NCBI GenBank assembly: GCA_031291795.1
Contig: JARLIJ010000075.1
Coordinates: 1-35,032, forward strand
DNA: 35,032 nt
Reading direction: 5' to 3'
DNA from: Acetobacteraceae bacterium
GTDB taxonomy: Bacteria > Pseudomonadota > Alphaproteobacteria > Acetobacterales > Acetobacteraceae
A program made the translations under genes and the position numbers. Numbering within the stretch: position 1 is the first letter of the stretch; each line of letters starts with the position of its first letter. Positions 12,485-20,966 of this stretch are shown in pieces. The notes beneath the pieces are model-generated. The model was not told the origin of the DNA. It did not search any database and saw only the letters and a program-made list of their open reading frames with translations.

Positions 12485-14947
12485 TCAGGCTGAGGCGGTT
12501 GGCGCGGTGAACACCGTGACCGGTGGCGCCACTCCCTTGTATTTTTCGATGTCACCGATCGCGGTGTGCCCGCAGTTCCCTTGCGCCAGTTTCGAGGTCC
12601 CGATGCCGATCGTCAGGACGTTGACATCGCCGTACTTGCACAGCGATCCCGGTGTGGCTGGGTCGACCGGATCATACCAGCCACCCTCGTTCACGCGGAT
12701 CACACCGGGCCGCATGTCCTCGGTGATACGGGCGCCGGCCAGGATCTGGCCGCGGTCGTTGAACACCCGCACCACGTCGCCGTCGGCGATCCCGCGGGAC
12801 GCCGCGTCCTTCGGGTTGATCAGGCACGGCTCACGGTCGGCGACGGTGTACCCCTTGCGCAGCACTGTCCCCGCAAGCTGCGAGTGCAGCCGGCCATGCG
12901 GATGGCTGGTCGCGATGTGCAGCGGGAACTTCGCATCGGGTCCGCCCAGCCGCTCCGCCGGCTCCATCCATGTCGGGTGCGGCGGGCAGTCATCGTATGC
13001 CATTTTCTCAATATTACGAGAATATATCTCAATCTTTCCGGAGGGCGTTCCGAGCGGTTCAAGCAGCGGATCTTCGCGGAACTTGGCGTGACGGACGAAA
13101 TTCATCGCCGCCACGTCGATCGGGAAAGCAACCACGCCGGCTTTCCAGAACGTATCGAAGTCGGGCATGCCGATCTTCTTGGCTTTCGCCTGCAGCAGGG
13201 CGGCTTCGTAGAAGCTACGCAGCCAGTCCATTTCGCTGCGCCCCTCGGTGAACTCGCGGGCCTTGCCGAAGCGGTCGCAGATCGCGGTGAAGATGTCGTA
13301 GTCGCTGCGCGCCTCGAACACCGGGTCGATGACCTGCTTCATCGCCAGAATATGGCTGGAGGAATAGTCGCCGACGACCTCGATATCGTTGCGCTCATAG
13401 GCGCTGGTGGCAGGCAGCACGATGTCGGCGTGCCGCGCCGTGGCGGTCCACTGGAAGTCCTGCACGATGAAGGTTTCCAGTTTGCGCCAGGCCTCCACCA
13501 TGTGGTTGCGATCCTGGTGATGGGCGAACGGATTGCCGCCGACCCAGTAGACCAGCTTAACGTCGGGGTACTGCGCCTTCTTGCCGTTGAAATCGAACGT
13601 CTCGCCGGGGTGCAGCAGCATCTCCGACACCCGGCTGAGCGGGATCGAAGCTGCGCCGGCCGAGGACATCCACGCCGCGCCGCCCGTCTTGCTGCCATCC
13701 GAGATGCCGGTGAGCACCGGGGCCGTCGCGCTGGGCGCGCCACCACTGGCGTAATGGTACGACAGGCCGAAGCCGCCGCCGGGTGAGCCGATCTGTCCCA
13801 GCATGCAGGCGAGCGTGACGAGCATCCAGTGCACCTGCTCGCCATGATGCTGGCGCTGCACCGACCAGCCACTCGCGAGCATGGTGCGATTGGCGGCGAA
13901 GCGGTGCGCCAGGTCGCGGATCGTGTCGGCTGGCACGTCGCAGATCGCGGCCGCCCACTCGGCGGTCTTCGGCGTCTTGTCGTCGGTGCCCAGCAGGTAG
14001 GGCAGGAACTTCTCGAAGCCGGTCGTGTAGTCGGCGAGGAATTTCTCGTCGTGCAGCTTCTCGGTGTACAGCGTGTGGGCGATGCCGAGCATTAGGGCAA
14101 CGTCGGTCTGCGGCCGGGGTGCGATCCACTCGGCGTTCAGCGTGCGGCAGGTCTCGGTGCGCACCGGGTCGATGCAGATGACCTTCTTGCCGCTGTCTTT
14201 CAGCGCCTTCAGCCCCTCATAGGCGCCATGGTCGGCGACGCCCCAGCTGATGTCGTTGGTGGTGTACGGGTCGGCGCCCCAGAACACCACGAGTTGGCTA
14301 TCGCGCACGACCACCGGCCAGACCGTCTGCTGCTCGTAGACCTCCAGCGAGCCGACGACATGCGGCATGATCACCTGCGACGCACCGGTCGAATAGTCGC
14401 CGGTCGCGTTGACGAAGCTGGTGCCGCGGGCATTGAACATCCGGTAGAGCAGGGTGCGGCAGTTATTCAGCTTGCCCGGGCTCTTCCAGCCGTAGCTGCC
14501 GGCGAAGGTGCCGGACGGGCCGTGTGCCGCGTCCACCCGCTTGAGCTCCTTGGCTACCAGATCGAGCGCCTGGTCCCAGCTCACCCGCACGAAGTCGCCG
14601 TCGCCGCGGGTTTCCGGCATCGCACCCGGCCCCTTTTCCAGGAAGGCGCGGCGGACCATCGGGTATTTGATGCGGGTGGGCGAATACACCGAATCCAGGA
14701 TGCCCGGCAGGTTCGGGCTCGGGCGCGGATCTTTCTCCCACGGGCGGATCGCGGTGAAGCGGCCACCTTCGACGCGGCCATAGAAGGCACCCCAGTGGGA
14801 GCCGGTCAGCACTTCCCCGTCCGCACCGGCTGCGCGTGCGCCGCGGACCAGCAGCGACGGACCGAACAGGCCGAGGGCGGCGGCCGTGGCACTGGTGCCG
14901 AGCAACTGGCGACGGGACAGCAGCGCGTGGATGGTGTCGTTCAACAT
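12485..14947 (-). CDS. dorA: Periplasmic DMSO/TMAO reductase, molybdopterin catalytic subunit
   Basis: An 820-residue single-subunit molybdoenzyme that reduces dimethyl sulfoxide or trimethylamine N-oxide as terminal electron acceptor. A Tat signal (SRRQLLG, residues 11-17, then a hydrophobic stretch ending ARAAGAD) sends it folded to the periplasm. The molybdenum ligand is Ser186 in GDYSTGAS, as in the DorA/TorA/BisC family. SYGW at 151-154 contains the tyrosine (152) that Rhodobacter DMSO reductase has and E. coli TorA lacks. This favours a DMSO-type enzyme over a strict TMAO reductase. The GNPFAHHQD and CGHTAIGD blocks of the cofactor domains are present; length is normal. It is the last gene of dorC-dorD-dorA, the Rhodobacter order rather than E. 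coli torCAD, 44 bases after dorD. Confidence 0.93.
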   Translation of the reverse strand: MLNDTIHALLSRRQLLGTSATAAALGLFGPSLLVRGARAAGADGEVLTGSHWGAFYGRVEGGRFTAIRPWEKDPRPSPNLPGILDSVYSPTRIKYPMVRRAFLEKGPGAMPETRGDGDFVRVSWDQALDLVAKELKRVDAAHGPSGTFAGSYGWKSPGKLNNCRTLLYRMFNARGTSFVNATGDYSTGASQVIMPHVVGSLEVYEQQTVWPVVVRDSQLVVFWGADPYTTNDISWGVADHGAYEGLKALKDSGKKVICIDPVRTETCRTLNAEWIAPRPQTDVALMLGIAHTLYTEKLHDEKFLADYTTGFEKFLPYLLGTDDKTPKTAEWAAAICDVPADTIRDLAHRFAANRTMLASGWSVQRQHHGEQVHWMLVTLACMLGQIGSPGGGFGLSYHYASGGAPSATAPVLTGISDGSKTGGAAWMSSAGAASIPLSRVSEMLLHPGETFDFNGKKAQYPDVKLVYWVGGNPFAHHQDRNHMVEAWRKLETFIVQDFQWTATARHADIVLPATSAYERNDIEVVGDYSSSHILAMKQVIDPVFEARSDYDIFTAICDRFGKAREFTEGRSEMDWLRSFYEAALLQAKAKKIGMPDFDTFWKAGVVAFPIDVAAMNFVRHAKFREDPLLEPLGTPSGKIEIYSRNIEKMAYDDCPPHPTWMEPAERLGGPDAKFPLHIATSHPHGRLHSQLAGTVLRKGYTVADREPCLINPKDAASRGIADGDVVRVFNDRGQILAGARITEDMRPGVIRVNEGGWYDPVDPATPGSLCKYGDVNVLTIGIGTSKLAQGNCGHTAIGDIEKYKGVAPPVTVFTAPTASA

Positions 14948-14991: not shown

Positions 14992-15582
14992 TCAGGCCTC
15001 GCATCCGGCAAGTGCTGCAAGCAGCAGCGCGGCGCCGGCGTAGAATCCGGTGGAGTCGCGGGTCGCGCAGCTGCCGCAGAAAGCGGGCAGCCAGGCGAGT
15101 TCGGTGCGCCGGAACGCCTCGGCGGTTTCGGGTGGTTCCCGCCACAGCAGTTCGGCCAGGATGGTGAGCTGGATCGCCACGTGGTCGGGTGGCTCGCGGC
15201 AATCGCCGGCGACCGCCAGGTCCAGGCGGCTGAGTTCGGCCTGCATGCGGGCCGCAGCGGCGCCATACAGCCGGCCCTCCGCATACGCAGAAGCATAGGG
15301 CGGCACGTTGGCCGGTCCACCCGCGCCGCTGAACAGCAGCGTCCAGGCGTTGCTCAGCGCCTCAATGCAGTTGGCGCGCAGTGCCCCCATGAGGCACGTC
15401 GTCCCCGGGGCGAACCGGGGATCGGCTGCACAGTCGGCCAGCAGGCGCGCACCGACGCCGTCGCGGCAGGATTGCAGCAGCTTCGCGTCCGGCGGAGCGA
15501 TGAACAATCGCGCCAGGAACTGGCACAGCGGCAAAGCGGTCGCATCCAGGGGCGTGCGGTCGGTGGCGTGCTGCTCAGCCAT
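14992..15582 (-). CDS. dorD: DMSO/TMAO reductase-specific chaperone (TorD family)
   Basis: A 196-residue all-helical cytoplasmic chaperone of the TorD/DmsD family, which binds the Tat leader and the apo-enzyme until the molybdenum cofactor is inserted. Family features are weak but present: a helical body with LCQFLARLFIAPPDAKLL near the start, YASAYAEGRLYG in the middle (the YxSxY-type motif before the hinge) and PPDHVAIQLTIL (P-D-H-x-x-x-x-L), the best-conserved part. ATG 15582 overlaps the dorC stop by 8 bases, so translation is coupled. Six cysteines, several in the C-terminal 60 residues, are more than usual. Confidence 0.88.
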   Translation of the reverse strand: MAEQHATDRTPLDATALPLCQFLARLFIAPPDAKLLQSCRDGVGARLLADCAADPRFAPGTTCLMGALRANCIEALSNAWTLLFSGAGGPANVPPYASAYAEGRLYGAAAARMQAELSRLDLAVAGDCREPPDHVAIQLTILAELLWREPPETAEAFRRTELAWLPAFCGSCATRDSTGFYAGAALLLAALAGCEA

Positions 15583-16855
15583 GAGGGGGCACCATATCGC
15601 TGGCATGGAGCTGCAGGTATTTCTGCAGAAAGCGGTACTGTTCATCGTCGAGGTTTATGAACCGCTTCATCGCATTCAGCGTACCGATCCACTGGTTGGC
15701 GAGGTACTGGTTCGCCTGCGGTGGCGCGTGGCAGGTGCTGCAGGAATCGGCAAACATCTCCGCGCCGTAGGCCGTGAGCTGTCCCTGGTCAGCGACCAGC
15801 GCGTCGTGGCCGATCCAGGCGGTCAGGCTCGCACGGTTCCACACCTGGTCGGTGTTCTTGTCGGTCGCGCCGGCCTGGCGTTCCACCTTGGTGACAGCGG
15901 CGCCTCCGAGTGCGGCGGTCAGGATGCGTTGACCCATCGCGGCATAGATTGCCCGTTCGGCACCTTCCTGCTGCCAGCCGTCGATGCGCACCTGCAGCCA
16001 GTCGCCGTCACGGGCGATGACCTGCACAGCCGAACCGGGCAGCAATTTGCCATCGCCGGAGGCGTCGGATGCTGCCGCGGCGCGATCGAGGAACAGTGAG
16101 CGCGTTGTCAGGGTGTAGAGCGTGTCGCCGACCTTCGGCCGCAGGTTGGCCGATGCGGCGGTCAGGTCGTTGAACATAGCTTTGTAGCCCTGCGTCATGT
16201 CCGGCAGCTTGTGGGCGATGCCCTTGTGGCAATCGATGCAAGTGCTGCCGTCGTGTGCGGCCTTCGCCATGCCCGTGACGGCTTCCGGCCGTTGCTTGTG
16301 GGGGTCCATCGCATCGAAGCTGTGGCAGTTGCGGCATTCACGGGAATCGGTCGCCTTCATCGAGGCCCAGACCGAACGGGCCAACCTCAGCCGCTGAGCG
16401 TCGAACTTCTCCGGCGTGGAGATCGTGCCACGAATCTCGCTGTAGATTTCCCCTGAAGCCTGGATCTTGCGCAGGATCATCGGCCCCCAGGGCCGGGGTA
16501 CGTGGCAGTCGCTGCAGATCGCGCGTACGCCGGAAGCGTTCTTGTAGTGCACCGATGTCAGATATTCGGGGTACACCGTGTCGCTCATGCTGTGGCAGCT
16601 GGTGCAGAAGCCGAGCGTCTCGGTGAATGCGATGGCGGTGTGAAGGCCACCCCAGCCGAGGATGCCGAGGGCGATGCCGGCGGCGACCAGCACCCCGGCG
16701 CCCAGGCCTGCGCTGGGCAACACCACCCACCGCCAGATGCGCCGCAGGACACCGTATGCTGGCTGCCTGGGTGGTGGCTGCCCCGGTGGAACGTTGGACG
16801 GTTGCTGGCCGGCCGGGGGAGGCTCGGATGGACCGGAAATGGAATCGCCAAGCAT
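15575..16855 (-). CDS. dorC: Membrane-anchored pentahaem cytochrome c (DorC/TorC)
   Basis: A 426-residue NapC/NirT-type quinol dehydrogenase that passes electrons from the quinone pool to DorA. There are five CxxCH haem sites. Four are in the NapC-like domain (CTSCH at 84-88, CSDCH at 114-118, CRNCH at 174-178, CIDCH at 206-210) and the fifth, CSTCH at 372-376, is in the C-terminal domain typical of TorC. One membrane helix (about residues 43-67) anchors it. Before the helix is a proline-rich cytoplasmic segment of about 30 residues (PPPAGQQPSNVPPGQPPP), longer than in the E. coli protein. ATG 16855 is chosen because ACGGGGAACC precedes it; ATG 16870 would add five residues but has no Shine-Dalgarno. 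First gene of the operon, behind an FNR-type box. Confidence 0.94.
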   Translation of the reverse strand: MLGDSISGPSEPPPAGQQPSNVPPGQPPPRQPAYGVLRRIWRWVVLPSAGLGAGVLVAAGIALGILGWGGLHTAIAFTETLGFCTSCHSMSDTVYPEYLTSVHYKNASGVRAICSDCHVPRPWGPMILRKIQASGEIYSEIRGTISTPEKFDAQRLRLARSVWASMKATDSRECRNCHSFDAMDPHKQRPEAVTGMAKAAHDGSTCIDCHKGIAHKLPDMTQGYKAMFNDLTAASANLRPKVGDTLYTLTTRSLFLDRAAAASDASGDGKLLPGSAVQVIARDGDWLQVRIDGWQQEGAERAIYAAMGQRILTAALGGAAVTKVERQAGATDKNTDQVWNRASLTAWIGHDALVADQGQLTAYGAEMFADSCSTCHAPPQANQYLANQWIGTLNAMKRFINLDDEQYRFLQKYLQLHASDMVPPHG

Positions 16856-16897
16856 GGTTCCCCGTCTCATCGACGCAGACCGATGCGTCCAGGGGAA

Positions 16898-16939
16898 ATC
16901 CTAGGCTGGCATGGTAAACTATACCTTGATTCAGATCAT
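16898..16939 (-). promoter_or_regulatory. FNR/FixK-type promoter of dorCDA
   Basis: TTGAT-TCAG-ATCAT at 16926-16939 (written on the plus strand) matches the FNR/Anr/FixK consensus TTGAT-N4-ATCAA in nine of ten positions. Read on the minus strand toward dorC, a TAGGAT hexamer (16898-16903) lies where the -10 should be if the box is centred at -41.5, the class II activator position. It would place the transcription start at about 16891 and leave a leader of about 36 bases before ATG 16855. Activation under low oxygen by an FnrL- or FixK-like protein is inferred; the regulator gene is not in the window. Confidence 0.75.
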
Positions 16940-16988: not shown

Positions 16989-17897
16989 TCAGGCGAACGC
17001 GGCGAACACCTCTTCCAACGCCTTGATTTGGTTGCCGGCGGCCGAGGACGGCACGATGATCGGGGTCCGCACGCCGGCCGCCTGCCACGCCTCGACGCCC
17101 TCCCGCACTTGGCTTGCGTTTCCGTACAGTGTGTTGTCTGCCAACCATCGATCGGTGAGATAGGCGGGCACGTCGTCGCGCCGGCCCTCGTCGATGGCAC
17201 GTTCGATCGCGGCCATCTCGTCGCCGTAGCCGGCTTCCTTCCAGTAATTCCGGTAGTTCGGCAGGAACGCATAGCTGGTTAGCGTGCGCCGGTTGATCGC
17301 TTTGGCCGCTTCGACATCGTCGCTGATGCAGGTTGGGATCATGTTCCCGATGAAGAACCCTGGATCGGCGCGCTTCGCCTCGGGGAGTGCGGCGAGCGAC
17401 GTTGCCATGTGGGAGCGGGAGGCGTTGGCAAACACCACGCCCTCGGCGATCTCTCCCGCCAGCGCGACCATCTTCCGGCGTAGCGCCGCGATGATGACCG
17501 GCGGCAGGGGGCCGAGGCCGTCCTGCGCGCGGAACCGTTCCACGAAGCTGCGGATATCGCCCAGTGGCTTGCCGGGGGTGACGCCCATGCGGACATGCGA
17601 CGGGCCGTGAGCGACGCCGATGCCGAGGTGGAAGCGGCCGCCGGACACCTCATGCATCGCGGCGGCACTCTGCGCGAAGTCGGACACGGTGCGCTGGTAG
17701 ATTGGTGCGATGGCGGTGCCGAATCGGATGCGGCTGGTGTTCCAGGCGAGTGCCTCGCACAGCGACATGTTGCCGAACATCGAGGGCGAGAAGATACCAT
17801 CGAAGCCCCGCCGCTCGATCTCCTGCGCGAGTTCGATGGTGCGCCGGCGACGGCCCGGGACGGCGACCAGACTGAGGGCGGGGAGGGGTGCTGGCAT
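16989..17897 (-). CDS. Luciferase-like (LLM class) flavin or F420-dependent oxidoreductase
   Basis: A 302-residue TIM-barrel protein of the bacterial luciferase-like family. Recognisable blocks are AQEIERRGFDGIFSPS near the start, IRFGTAIAPIYQRTVSDFAQSAAAMHE, and the signature SGGRFHLGIGVAHGPSHVRMG. These form the flavin/F420 pocket; which cofactor is used cannot be told. The start MPAPLPALSLV at 17897 is preferred; the same frame is open further upstream without conserved sequence. Its 3' end points at the dorC promoter, with the stop about 50 bases from the FNR-type box, and its 5' end faces the small gene at 17945. No partner reductase or substrate gene is adjacent. Confidence 0.85.
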   Translation of the reverse strand: MPAPLPALSLVAVPGRRRRTIELAQEIERRGFDGIFSPSMFGNMSLCEALAWNTSRIRFGTAIAPIYQRTVSDFAQSAAAMHEVSGGRFHLGIGVAHGPSHVRMGVTPGKPLGDIRSFVERFRAQDGLGPLPPVIIAALRRKMVALAGEIAEGVVFANASRSHMATSLAALPEAKRADPGFFIGNMIPTCISDDVEAAKAINRRTLTSYAFLPNYRNYWKEAGYGDEMAAIERAIDEGRRDDVPAYLTDRWLADNTLYGNASQVREGVEAWQAAGVRTPIIVPSSAAGNQIKALEEVFAAFA

Positions 17898-17944
17898 CGG
17901 GCGGGTCCTTGGACTTTCCGGGACGTGATTGCCGCCAGCGTATC

Positions 17945-18199
17945 GTGCGACTGCGTCCGGCGCCAACTGGGAGCCGGCTGCGCGCGGCCATCGTTGCAAT
18001 GTCAGCGTGGTCGGCGTCGGCTCTTGCCGCGATGATCGACCCTGCCACGGGCGACGACATCCTGCCCGCCTGCAATGGCGACAATCCACTCGTCGTAATC
18101 ACCTGCTGCAAGGGGCCGGCACTCCCTAAACCAGCCGCGATCACCCTCTTCGGCGCCGGCGTCGTGGCGCTCGGGTTGTTCGGCCGCTGTCGCACCTGA
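17945..18199 (+). CDS. Small secreted protein with a PEP-CTERM-like C-terminus (putative)
   Basis: An 84-residue frame from GTG 17945. It starts with basic residues (MRLRPAPTGSRLR) and a hydrophobic stretch ending SASALAAM, a plausible Sec signal with an ALA cleavage site. A short middle with three cysteines follows (PACNGDN, TCCKG), then LPKPAAITLFGAGVVALGLFGRCRT. That end has the layout of the PEP-CTERM sorting signal: a proline motif, a transmembrane stretch with FGAG, and a basic tail. The motif reads P-K-P instead of P-E-P. If real it would be processed by an exosortase, none of which is in the window. A small mature peptide of about 30 residues is odd for the class. It is not in an obvious operon, and the start has no strong ribosome-binding site. 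Confidence 0.45.
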   Translation: MRLRPAPTGSRLRAAIVAMSAWSASALAAMIDPATGDDILPACNGDNPLVVITCCKGPALPKPAAITLFGAGVVALGLFGRCRT

Positions 18200-18291: not shown

Positions 18292-18305
18292 TTGATCCAG
18301 ATCAA
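18292..18305. promoter_or_regulatory. Perfect FNR/FixK-type operator before the Rid-dioxygenase operon
   Basis: TTGAT-CCAG-ATCAA matches the FNR/Anr/FixK consensus at all ten defined positions. Its centre is about 108 bases upstream of the ATG at 18407. At class II spacing the -10 slot (18328-18333) is AATTAC, a poor match, so activation geometry is less clear than for dorC and repression or a different start site is possible. It shares nine of the ten defined bases and the central CAG with the box in front of dorC. Confidence 0.75.
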
Positions 18306-18406
18306 GGACAGCAAAGGGAACTGGCCCAATTACTCCCGGTGCTTGCGCTGCGTGCATCGCGTCGATGTGCCACGCCGGACATGCTGCCCACCGGGAGGCC
18401 CTATCG

Positions 18407-19567
18407 ATGCCCACTGCTGATGCCACGGCGATGAAGACGTTCCGAGGGGGGGCCGGCGGCGCGGAGCACTTCATAACCGTGCAAGCGTCTGCGGGTGGCA
18501 CCTTTGCCGAGCAGGTCGCTCAGGTCGAGCAGCGGTACGCGCGGGCCCAGGCCGCACTGGGACTGCAGCCGGACAGTGCTATATTCCGCCGTATATTTCT
18601 CAGTGACGCGCCGAACCAGGCCGCGCATATCGAGGCCACGCGCCTGTTCGACGACCCGGACAGTGGGCCGGTCGCGGTTTCGATCGTGCAGCAGCCACCT
18701 CTGCCGGACGCGAAGCTGGCCCTGCTCGCCTACCACGTAGACGGCAACGGGCCGGTGACGAAGCAGCGCCTGTCTCCCAATCAGATGATCGTGAGGAAGC
18801 ACGGCAACCGCCATCTGTGGAGCACCGGGCTGTGCACCGGCGCGGTGCGCGAACCGACCTCGACCGTCGGCCAGACACGTGCCGTGTTCGAGGCCCTGAC
18901 GGGCGCTCTGGCGAGTCACCGTGCGACGTTGCGCGACCATTGCGTGCGTACCTGGATCTACGTCAAGGACGTCGACGTGTTCTATCAGGACGTGGTGACC
19001 AGCCGCACCGCGTTCTTCGAGCAGCATGGCCTGACGCGTGACACGCACTACCTGGCCAGCACCGGCATCGAGGGCGCCTGCGCGCACCGCTACGACACGG
19101 TGCTGATGGACGCCTACTCGAACCTCGATCTTGTGCCGGAGCAGGTTTCTTACCTGAACGATTTCAAGCGGCTGTGCGCCACCAAGGATTATGGCGTCAC
19201 GTTCGAGCGCGGCACGCGCATCGGATACGCCGATCGTGCGCAGCACTTCATCTCCGGCACTGCAAGCATCGACGTTGCCGGCCATGTCGTCCACCCCGGC
19301 GACGTGCTCCGCCAGCTCGATCGCGCGCTGGACAACGTTGCGGGGCTCCTGGAGTCGGGTGCTGCTGCCCTGGGGGACATGCAGTACCTGCTGGTGTACT
19401 TGCGCGACCCGTCCGAGCTAACGCGGGTCGAGCCCCGCCTGCGGGAACGCTGCCCCAACGTGCCGCTGGTTTTCCTGCGTGGCGCGGTCTGCCGGCCTGA
19501 CTGGCTGATCGAGGTCGAGGGGGTCGCCGTGACCTCGTCGAACGCGCCGAACCTGCCGAACTTCTAA
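18407..19567 (+). CDS. Tandem Rid (YjgF/YER057c/UK114) domain protein, chorismatase-like layout
   Basis: A 386-residue protein with two Rid-type halves. The N-terminal half runs through LWSTGLCTGAVREP, QTRAVFEALTGALASHRATL and RTWIYVKDVDVFYQ, a diverged Rid fold. The C-terminal half is a clearer Rid domain: GTRIGYADRAQHFISGTASI, GHVVHPGDVLRQL, YLLVYLRDPSE, and CRPDWLIEVEGVAV. Arg363 in that last block is where RidA carries its substrate carboxylate-binding arginine, with Glu369/371 following. The two-domain size and CRPDxLIEVE end recall the FkbO/Hyg5/XanB2 chorismate hydrolases as much as imine deaminases; I cannot decide between them. GGGAGG at 18393-18398 sets ATG 18407. First gene of a three-gene unit with two 2-oxoglutarate oxygenases. 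Confidence 0.75.
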   Translation: MPTADATAMKTFRGGAGGAEHFITVQASAGGTFAEQVAQVEQRYARAQAALGLQPDSAIFRRIFLSDAPNQAAHIEATRLFDDPDSGPVAVSIVQQPPLPDAKLALLAYHVDGNGPVTKQRLSPNQMIVRKHGNRHLWSTGLCTGAVREPTSTVGQTRAVFEALTGALASHRATLRDHCVRTWIYVKDVDVFYQDVVTSRTAFFEQHGLTRDTHYLASTGIEGACAHRYDTVLMDAYSNLDLVPEQVSYLNDFKRLCATKDYGVTFERGTRIGYADRAQHFISGTASIDVAGHVVHPGDVLRQLDRALDNVAGLLESGAAALGDMQYLLVYLRDPSELTRVEPRLRERCPNVPLVFLRGAVCRPDWLIEVEGVAVTSSNAPNLPNF

Positions 19568-19584
19568 CCAAGGAGAGCAATGCC

Positions 19585-20274
19585 ATGTCGGATGCCGCTG
19601 CGCCGCTCGCCATACTCGATGAAGCCGCCATCGCTGCGGCCGAGTTGCGAACCGATCCTTATGACTTCACCTTCGTGGAGCAGGCGCTGCCGCCAGCCCT
19701 GAAGGAAACCGTGCTGGCGGATGCGCCTCGCATCCCGGACCGCGGCAGCTATGGGCTGCCGGACCTGCGCTACGGGCCGTCGTTTGGCACCATCGTGCAG
19801 GACCTGCTCAGCGTGCGCTTCCGCCAGTTGGTGGAGAAGAAGTTCGACATGGATCTGAGCGCCTGCCCGCCAGCCATTGTCATGATGGGCAATACCACCG
19901 GCCACTACAACGAAGGCTATGCCCACCCGGATTCGAAGCACAAGATCATCACGATCCTGCTTGGCTTCACGCGTGAATGGCCCTACGAGCGCGGCAAGCT
20001 GCGCGTGCTGCGCGGCAATGATCGTAACGATTTCGCCTTCGAGTTCGCGCCCGAATATGGCCGAATGCTGATGTTCCGCGTCTGCGACCATTCCTGGCAC
20101 GGCTTCCTGCCGCAGAAGGGCCAGCGGGCGAGCCTGCAGCTCTGCTACGTCGACTCCGAGTGGTACGTGCGCAAGGAGTACCTCCGCCACAGCATCAGCG
20201 CCTACGCCAAGTCCGTGCCGTTGCTCCGCAAGGTCATCGACTATGCGCCGCGGCGTCTGACCGGAGCCGGCTGA
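19585..20274 (+). CDS. 2-oxoglutarate/Fe(II)-dependent oxygenase (first of pair)
   Basis: A 229-residue double-stranded beta-helix oxygenase. The iron-binding triad is visible as His114-x-Asp116 (GYAHPDSKHK) and His172 (DHSWHGF). Arg181 (KGQRASLQL), nine residues after the distal His, is placed to bind the 2-oxoglutarate carboxylate. KLRVLRG then FEFAPEYGRMLMF form the strand-turn region before the distal His, as in prolyl-hydroxylase-like enzymes. A hydroxylation, desaturation or ring-forming oxidation is expected; the substrate is unknown. AGGAGAG at 19571 sets the start at 19585, 17 bases after the Rid gene, and the stop overlaps the next ATG (TGATGA), so the three genes are co-transcribed and the last two translationally coupled. 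Confidence 0.85.
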   Translation: MSDAAAPLAILDEAAIAAAELRTDPYDFTFVEQALPPALKETVLADAPRIPDRGSYGLPDLRYGPSFGTIVQDLLSVRFRQLVEKKFDMDLSACPPAIVMMGNTTGHYNEGYAHPDSKHKIITILLGFTREWPYERGKLRVLRGNDRNDFAFEFAPEYGRMLMFRVCDHSWHGFLPQKGQRASLQLCYVDSEWYVRKEYLRHSISAYAKSVPLLRKVIDYAPRRLTGAG

Positions 20275-20966
20275 TGAACACGCCAGCGGGCAGCTACCCG
20301 CCGGTGCCGGCGGTGGGCGAGATTGCCGACCATTTCATCGCGGCCGTCAAAGGATCGGAGCGGGCCGACTGGCCGTTCCGTCACTGGCGGATGAAGGACG
20401 TGTTTCCCGAGGCGCTGTGCACCGCGCTCCTGGTGCTGCCGATCGCGCCTCCCCTGCTGGGCCGCACCGACGGCACCCGCGGGAGCTACAACGACAAGCG
20501 CACCTTCATCACGCCGGAACTACGCGGCAAGTTCCCGGTCTGCGCGGCGCTGTCGGAGGCGTTGCAGCGCCCCGAGGTCGCGCGGGCGATGGCCGAGACC
20601 TGCAGCATCAATGTCGAGGGTGGCTTCCTGCGGATGGAGTACATGCAGGACCTCGACGGGTCCTGGCTGGAACCGCATCGTGACATCCCCGAGAAGTTGT
20701 TCTCCATGGTGGTGTATCTGTTCACCGGTCCCGATGCGAAGGACTGGGGGACCGATTTGTACGACGCGGATCAGCGCTGGGTCATGCAGTCGCCAGGCAC
20801 GTTTAACAGCGGGGTCATCTTCATCGCCGGCCCGGCAACCTGGCATGGCTTTGATCAGCGCCGGATCGTCGGCGTGCGTCGGCTGATGGAGATCAACTAC
20901 GTCCGCTCCGATTGGCGTGACCGCGAGCAACTGGCCATACCGGATCAGCCGATCCGGCTGACGTAG
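20274..20966 (+). CDS. 2-oxoglutarate/Fe(II)-dependent oxygenase (second of pair)
   Basis: A 230-residue oxygenase distinct from its neighbour: the two share only the fold. Metal ligands appear as His135-x-Asp137 in WLEPHRDIPEKLFSMVVYLF and His191 in ATWHGFDQRR; Arg202/203 (VGVRRLMEINY) fits the 2-oxoglutarate site. The GSYNDKRTFIT segment near 70-80 may form part of a substrate lid. ATG 20274 shares one base with the stop of the preceding gene. It ends 12 bases before a hairpin, so the operon closes here. Substrate unknown; proximity to the Rid protein suggests successive steps on one compound. Confidence 0.83.
   Translation: MNTPAGSYPPVPAVGEIADHFIAAVKGSERADWPFRHWRMKDVFPEALCTALLVLPIAPPLLGRTDGTRGSYNDKRTFITPELRGKFPVCAALSEALQRPEVARAMAETCSINVEGGFLRMEYMQDLDGSWLEPHRDIPEKLFSMVVYLFTGPDAKDWGTDLYDADQRWVMQSPGTFNSGVIFIAGPATWHGFDQRRIVGVRRLMEINYVRSDWRDREQLAIPDQPIRLT

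Follow-up and report, generated by a model that had tools for sequence, protein, structure and literature searches.

A window of 35,032 nucleotides from an Acetobacteraceae bacterium (contig JARLIJ010000075.1; the window is the whole stretch of DNA that was analyzed) carries three closely packed genes behind a conserved FNR-type box, and this operon is very probably switched on at low oxygen by FNR-type activation, a prediction that is the firmest part of our interpretation. The first gene, rid (gene 1), encodes a protein with a chorismatase fold, and the second and third, ox1 and ox2, encode predicted 2-oxoglutarate (2OG) oxygenases. Our best explanation of the whole, to which we give somewhat less than even credence, is an FNR-activated operon in which a chorismatase-like gene 1 product would supply 4-hydroxybenzoate (4-HB) for ubiquinone synthesis at low oxygen, and in which the oxygenases would have a micro-oxic job.

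A pattern search of the window found a single perfect FNR-type palindrome, TTGATCCAGATCAA, at 18292-18305, located 101 base pairs (bp) ahead of the gene 1 ATG at 18407; the reading frame is open from a further ATG, upstream at 18365, as well. A first-pass annotation of this DNA had drawn attention to the palindrome, to the tight packing of the three genes and to HxD...H and Arg oxygenase motifs in two of them, all of which is borne out by the sequence and by alignments of 26 ox1-type and 26 ox2-type proteins. With a looser pattern allowing up to two mismatches, the window is not above chance (seven boxes versus a mean of 4.75 expected, with 16 of 100 shuffles reaching seven). The genome as a whole (an assembly of 4.87 Mb in 417 contigs, 68.81% complete) contains 32 perfect sites versus none for a reversed control pattern, and a perfect box is kept upstream of gene 1 in 11 of 11 same-genus loci. 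The site at 18292-18305 is thus backed both by the genome-wide count against the control and by conservation before orthologues, and it has the look of a genuine FNR-type operator for a low-oxygen operon, as predicted from sequence.

The promoters behind these boxes suggest how the site may work. CTAGAA-like hexamers lie at −10 spacing behind the box in many orthologue promoters, and among 23 distinct perfect-box rid promoters, 14 have a TA at offset 23 or 24 behind the box; all remaining offsets as far as 35 together account for nine TAs. Identical promoters were dropped from these 23, many of which come from close relatives, and the promoter of the window is not among the 14. A −10 element at such spacing fits an activator centered at −41.5, the class II arrangement, and because of this TA at class II spacing we argue for activation at low oxygen. 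The promoter group as a whole has the class II layout (a palindrome, a −10 about 22 bp behind it, and the first gene of the unit), whereas in the window itself the candidate −10 (AATTAC, 18328-18333, plus strand), picked from the sequence and from comparison with orthologue promoters, is weak.

The position of the box was also compared across 37 wide loci, one per genome (our own, 10 of the same genus and 26 others of the family), with boxes scored up to one mismatch and a gene called first if no marker gene immediately preceded it on its strand. The box goes with the leading marker gene, whatever its identity. Where rid is first, a box is present in 24 of 26 loci (20 perfect, four with one mismatch), and where rid lies behind ubiV, ox2 or nrdG, in 2 of 11. 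Similarly, all seven loci in which ox1 is first have a box (six perfect, one with one mismatch), and none precedes ox1 in the 20 loci in which it follows rid. In addition, in all eight loci that allowed the ubiT start to be located, a perfect box precedes this gene. Gene order and box therefore recur in other genomes, something the first-pass annotation had left to be looked up, with 11 of 11 same-genus loci alike and a box before the first gene in most loci of the 37 genomes; of the two refuting outcomes named in that annotation, the one concerning the box, a lack of conservation, was thus not observed. These same data bear on the suggestion, also made there, that the box represses the operon when oxygen is absent, or on the alternative that it is unused. 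Such readings would suit two genes that look like oxygen-consuming enzymes and the weak −10 of the window, but they sit poorly with the class II spacing to a conserved −10-like element, with a box that tracks the first marker gene, and with the same boxes before ubiT. We consider them very improbable, and the repression model was set aside due to the class II spacing.

A candidate for the activator is encoded in the same genome. Nine proteins match the HTH_Crp_2 model, five of them over cut-off, and locus L243 encodes a 245-amino-acid FNR candidate with Cys at positions 20, 23 and 31 and a later Cys in YCRFS, a pattern that we take to be that of alphaproteobacterial FNR. A second Crp-family protein (L244), which is without these cysteines, could read the same site. 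The remainder of the regulon was surveyed in part, by scanning 29 open reading frames (ORFs) near the 31 other perfect boxes, a few of which have no scanned ORF. Among the genes near boxes are hemN (L242, over the equivalog cut-off) and those for a 4Fe-4S ferredoxin, a molybdopterin oxidoreductase and cytochrome oxidase subunit II, together with CBS and Host_attach proteins, transporters and others. Some perfect boxes lie inside ORFs or ahead of genes without an evident function at low oxygen (transporters, CstA). At one locus (L228), a perfect box near the contig start either precedes a fatty acid hydroxylase ORF or falls within its first part, which puts another oxygen-using enzyme at an FNR-type site.

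Gene 1 (18407-19567, plus strand) encodes 386 amino acids and was characterized by ORF analysis, family models, AlphaFold2, Foldseek and alignment. Scans against Pfam and NCBIfam placed a Rid domain C-terminally and gave a chorismatase match below threshold. The AlphaFold2 model, built with 28 sequences, has a mean predicted local distance difference test (pLDDT) score of 93.4, and its secondary structure reads as three consecutive Rid-like units. The earlier description as a tandem Rid protein therefore holds for the kind of unit and falls short in number, three rather than two, and the C-terminal CRPDxLIEVE reported with it is present as CRPDWLIEVE. In a Foldseek search with the model, ranks 1 to 7 were taken by chains of the chorismatases FkbO and Hyg5 (4bps, 5ag3, 5a3k), followed by single Rid domains. 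Template modeling scores against these chorismatases were 0.60-0.63 by query length and 0.68-0.73 by target length, with the fold spanning the whole chain; in a profile alignment, shared residues run from around residue 180 through the C-terminal half. The accessible text of PMC7170507 gives E334 as the catalytic Glu of Hyg5, and Gly, Gly and Cys as residues of the CH-II subfamily. Hyg5 E334 aligns to E369 of gene 1, and by alignment and spacing the CH-II Cys and one of the two Gly fall on C362 and G284 (the first Gly is outside the mapping); all three gene 1 residues are invariant in 28 sequences. All 28 aligned relatives also match the FkbO/Hyg5 chorismatase model TIGR04444 at E up to 0.001, the best at 1e-17, and gene 1 itself is below the cut-off.

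Judging from this model, gene 1 is no ordinary Rid protein, and a chorismatase-like reaction is the likely prediction; chorismate, already named as a possible substrate in the first-pass annotation, was a sensible guess. The other possibility is that gene 1 is a RidA-kind imine or enamine deaminase that would protect pyridoxal phosphate (PLP) enzymes at low oxygen. The same 28 of 28 aligned relatives have matches (E up to 0.001) to TIGR00004, a Rid model, and pdxST adjoin gene 1 in Acidiphilium loci. However, gene 1 reaches 25.6 bits on that model against a cut-off of 106.25, and chorismatases are what it matches best in whole-chain fold and in residues. Moreover, the Arg of the PAR motif, which has a functional role in RidA, faces a gap in the alignment of gene 1 to 2dyy. 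A deaminase role is thus quite improbable, and this reading was set aside on fold and residues.

To place the operon in its family, we surveyed 33 genomes of the own genus (our own included) and 299 genomes of the family. Of the 33, 11 have a strong match to gene 1 (E below 1e-150), and ox1 and ox2 adjoin gene 1 in all 11. Across the family, gene 1 is present in 28 of 299 genomes and a close ox1 orthologue (63% identity or more, with distant homologues set aside) in 33. The two coincide in 27 of the 28 gene 1 genomes (Fisher 1.6e-31, kinship ignored), and of the 37 genomes with wide loci, 27 carry ox1 as well as ox2 within the fetched stretch. Gene 1 also keeps company with UbiUV-type U32 proteins (PF01136). 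Matches to this family, which also includes other hydroxylases, were found in 54 genomes, of which seven with a single long TrhP-like match were dropped; four of the remaining 47 also have one match only. UbiU was confirmed at L076 and, by annotation, at L036 and L040. Counted in this way, 25 of the 28 gene 1 genomes have U32 matches (Fisher 2.1e-20, kinship ignored), and close ox1 and U32 occur together in 28 of the 299. By genus, U32 matches occur in 12 of 14 gene 1 genera in the sample versus 12 of 88 others (1.4e-7), and within the own genus in eight of 33 genomes, all eight with gene 1, and in none of the 22 without it.

Gene neighborhoods show the same association. Gene 1 lies directly behind ubiV in 8 of the 37 genomes, some ubiTUV gene is in the fetched stretch in 11, and pdxST or nrdDG are near gene 1 in Acidiphilium and some others. 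An Acidiphilium multivorum plasmid has a broken second copy of gene 1 before ox1-ox2 with a perfect box (L040:13139-14190, L096), and also an intact gene 1 within a ubiTUV-rid-pdxST unit. Only 7 of the 299 genomes have a UbiC that passes its cut-off, and none of the 28 gene 1 genomes has a UbiC match. It is because of the ubiTUV link and the absence of UbiC that we prefer 4-HB supply for low-oxygen ubiquinone.

On this preferred explanation, a fall in oxygen would lead a [4Fe-4S]-type FNR, or a relative reading the same site, to bind 18292-18305 and to activate transcription in class II geometry. Gene 1 would then cleave chorismate without oxygen into a hydroxybenzoate and pyruvate, and in Acetobacteraceae, which are mostly without UbiC, it would supply 4-HB for low-oxygen ubiquinone, alongside UbiTUV where present. 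The two 2OG oxygenases, presumably translated from the same messenger RNA (mRNA), would act micro-oxically on a further substrate. In E. coli, 4-HB is the precursor of anaerobic ubiquinone according to the accessible text of PMC6747719, and ubiT genes are Fnr-activated (PMC10470549, in part). Hyphomicrobium denitrificans has neither UbiC nor XanB2, and in the part of PMC12423496 available its authors cannot explain the source of 4-HB; gene 1 would be a single testable candidate for such a source in an alphaproteobacterium of this kind, for the low-oxygen case. The idea that gene 1 provides 4-HB throughout the family was considered and rejected, since it is found in only 28 of 299 genomes, while UbiC passes in only seven. 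A more far-reaching proposal makes gene 1 the missing O2-independent 4-HB synthase of UbiC-less Alphaproteobacteria and a new FNR-switched chorismatase subfamily (with O2-independent routes to ubiquinone, PLP and deoxynucleotides), and the tandem oxygenases a new micro-oxic class, all within a shared regulon; this seems to us rather unlikely.

Several observations weigh against the link to ubiquinone, and some against the operon model as a whole. Gene 1 scores only 60.8 bits against the 325 cut-off of TIGR04444, and its Hyg5-like residues favor 4-HB no more than 3-hydroxybenzoate. No PF01136 match was found in our own assembly at its 68.81% completeness, and U32 matches are likewise lacking from two more complete gene 1 genomes, G013 (98%) and G070 (96%). 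Conversely, 18 family U32 genomes have neither gene 1 nor a close ox1, so UbiUV does not need gene 1 beside it. In the accessible text of PMC12423496, the authors question whether H. denitrificans must have 4-HB as a precursor. To these are added the weak −10 of the window, the two rid-first loci with no box (L074, L086), a role for the oxygenases that the ubiquinone reading leaves unexplained, and the settings in which most of the fetched gene 1 relatives occur.

These settings come from a scan of named genomes in which the best 80 of at least 570 confirmed gene 1 relatives were fetched and searched with the ox1 and ox2 of the window, a search that distant oxygenases could escape. Among the 27 closest of the relatives listed (L135-L161), ox1 or ox2 is in the fetched stretch in 25, that of L139 being cut by the contig end. 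No match to either query was found in L148, L153 or the 53 more distant relatives listed, making 55 of the best 80 loci, so that most of the fetched relatives, among the matches listed, are outside this operon setting. The more distant ones belong to Bacteroidota, Verrucomicrobiota, Planctomycetota, Elusimicrobiota, Chromatiaceae and more. Two settings recur among them, one with porin, imelysin, di-heme oxidoreductase and hemerythrin genes, the other with PSD1, DUF1501 and PPC genes. The phyla that hold many of these relatives are not known to make ubiquinone, and because the relatives are common there and in other settings, the original role of gene 1 was probably not in ubiquinone synthesis.

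The first of these settings is seen in 22 loci (L169, L171-L212; with L037, L039), from Bacteroidota and a few others, which hold a cluster of porin, imelysin, di-heme oxidoreductase, gene 1 relative, second porin and a 240-amino-acid protein. The second is seen in 11 loci (L165-L185) of Planctomycetota, Verrucomicrobiota, Armatimonadota and others, where PSCyt2/PSD1, DUF1501 and PPC-domain genes are followed by the gene 1 relative. In two Hyphomicrobiales metagenome-assembled genomes (L146, L161), the operon stands beside a fatty-acid set (acyl carrier protein, FabA-like, two ketoacyl synthases, lipid A acyltransferase), a neighborhood that also has a Crp/Fnr-type regulator (genes scanned in L161). 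In a tree of 28 gene 1 proteins, the seven from loci with oxygenase partners form one group (97/95), adjoined by two Elusimicrobiota sequences (100/99 for the nine).

The oxygenase genes follow gene 1 closely. Ox1 (19585-20274, plus strand) starts 17 bp behind it, and the ATG of ox2 (20274-20966, plus strand) overlaps the ox1 TGA; the frame from 20274 is without stops, and that from 20275 has stops. Ox1 was assigned from Pfam, alignment and model fold, with H114, D116, H172 and R181 as its motif residues, and ox2 from motif alignment, with H135, D137, H191 and R202. In each case HxD...H...R is invariant in 26 of 26 aligned proteins of the type. The PF13640 match of ox1 is borderline, at 27 bits with a cut-off of 27, and ox2 has no family match in Pfam or NCBIfam and a weak sequence match to PasI (E 0.08). 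The ox1 model has a pLDDT of 86.9, and its closest folds are PasI and PolD, then Tpa1, PHD2 and the prolyl 4-hydroxylase (P4H) of Pseudomonas putida.

It had been proposed that the gene 1 product, made from chorismate or an imine, is oxidized in turn by the two 2OG enzymes to give a new micro-oxic metabolite. A single tight operon, a close ox1 in 27 of 28 gene 1 genomes of the family, and the common group formed by the seven oxygenase-partnered proteins would all suit such a linear pathway. However, 55 of the best 80 relative loci have no match to the window's ox1 or ox2 queries, which distant oxygenases could escape, and 6 of the 33 close-ox1 genomes, some of them incomplete, are without gene 1. 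In addition, in five genomes (L089, L091, L092, L094, L095) gene 1 lies behind ubiTUV and ox1-ox2 run in the opposite direction, and a distant oxygenase pair without gene 1 stands beside cbb3 and hemN genes. Two successive oxidations of the Rid product are therefore doubtful, and we hold the linear pathway to be unlikely.

That distant pair is in G010, a genome with no gene 1 match (36% and 39% identity, L223:5247-8127), where it is flanked by ccoP-ccoG-P-type ATPase genes of the cbb3 oxidase and by hemN; the gap that separates the pair from hemN contains a perfect box. G277, likewise with no gene 1 match, has a comparable pair (34% and 42% identity), whose ORF as called starts 67 bp after a perfect box. 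These boxed pairs and the six close-ox1 genomes without gene 1 suggest that the oxygenase pair is a member of low-oxygen regulons independently of gene 1. It is a paradox that two predicted oxygen-using enzymes should be placed, through conserved operators, in a regulon turned on when oxygen is scarce. This eases if the operon genes serve micro-oxic life, because the distant pair, even without gene 1, lies between cbb3 genes and hemN and has a perfect box on its hemN side; such a placement points to micro-oxic chemistry. Another explanation is that the tandem oxygenases modify a macromolecule or nucleotide (a ribosomal protein, elongation factor, transfer RNA or nucleoside), gated by oxygen and independent of gene 1. 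The best ox1 folds (PasI, solved with a nucleoside phosphate, and PolD, then Tpa1, PHD2 and P4H) and the perfect boxes of the G010 and G277 pairs make this possible, if on the unlikely side, but fold likeness does not fix a substrate, and close ox1 is paired almost constantly with gene 1 in the family. The neighbors of a distant ox1 homologue (AFG1, 2-oxoglutarate dehydrogenase) pointed to no substrate.

Elsewhere in the window, a second FNR-type box with one mismatch (16926-16939) is located outside the operon, 55 bp ahead of the start of a torC-like gene (15575-16870, minus strand). Family-model scans identified this gene, which gives context for low-oxygen life, and a torA-type trimethylamine N-oxide reductase gene (12485-14947, minus strand), with an unscanned ORF between the two. 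Just ahead of the operon's own box, a small ORF (17888-18199, plus strand) ends in PAAITLFGAGVVALGLFGRCRT, which resembles a PEP-CTERM sorting tail; a search with PEP-CTERM models gave weak matches only (E 0.06).

The first-pass annotation knew of no described pathway with this combination, and we likewise found no description of the gene set, or of such micro-oxic chemistry, among the titles and abstract starts listed by our searches of open-licence literature. Comparison with known systems places the operon nearest to four of them. It shares with the UbiTUV pathway the same FNR-type boxes and, in 11 of 37 genomes, the proximity of some ubiTUV gene. FNR control of ubiTUV is already published (PMC10470549, PMC11707229), but the accessible parts of those papers do not mention gene 1 and the two oxygenases, and some gene 1 genomes are without ubiUV. 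With FkbO and Hyg5, gene 1 shares the whole-chain fold, the catalytic Glu, the Hyg5-type Gly and Cys, and RxW, TGI, FxRxT and YxR motifs. It differs in having 17-20% identity, far below the TIGR04444 cut-off, in forming a separate widespread group, and in lying outside antibiotic or pigment clusters in the loci looked at. RidA/YjgF proteins resemble gene 1 in the Rid domain matches at its C-terminal end, whereas gene 1 has three units in one chain, has not kept the PAR-motif Arg and carries chorismatase residues. Finally, ox1 has the fold and the Fe/2OG motif of PolD, PasI and prolyl-4-hydroxylase-like 2OG oxygenases, but at about 20% identity and in another gene context, and its partner ox2 stands apart from the families of Pfam and NCBIfam.

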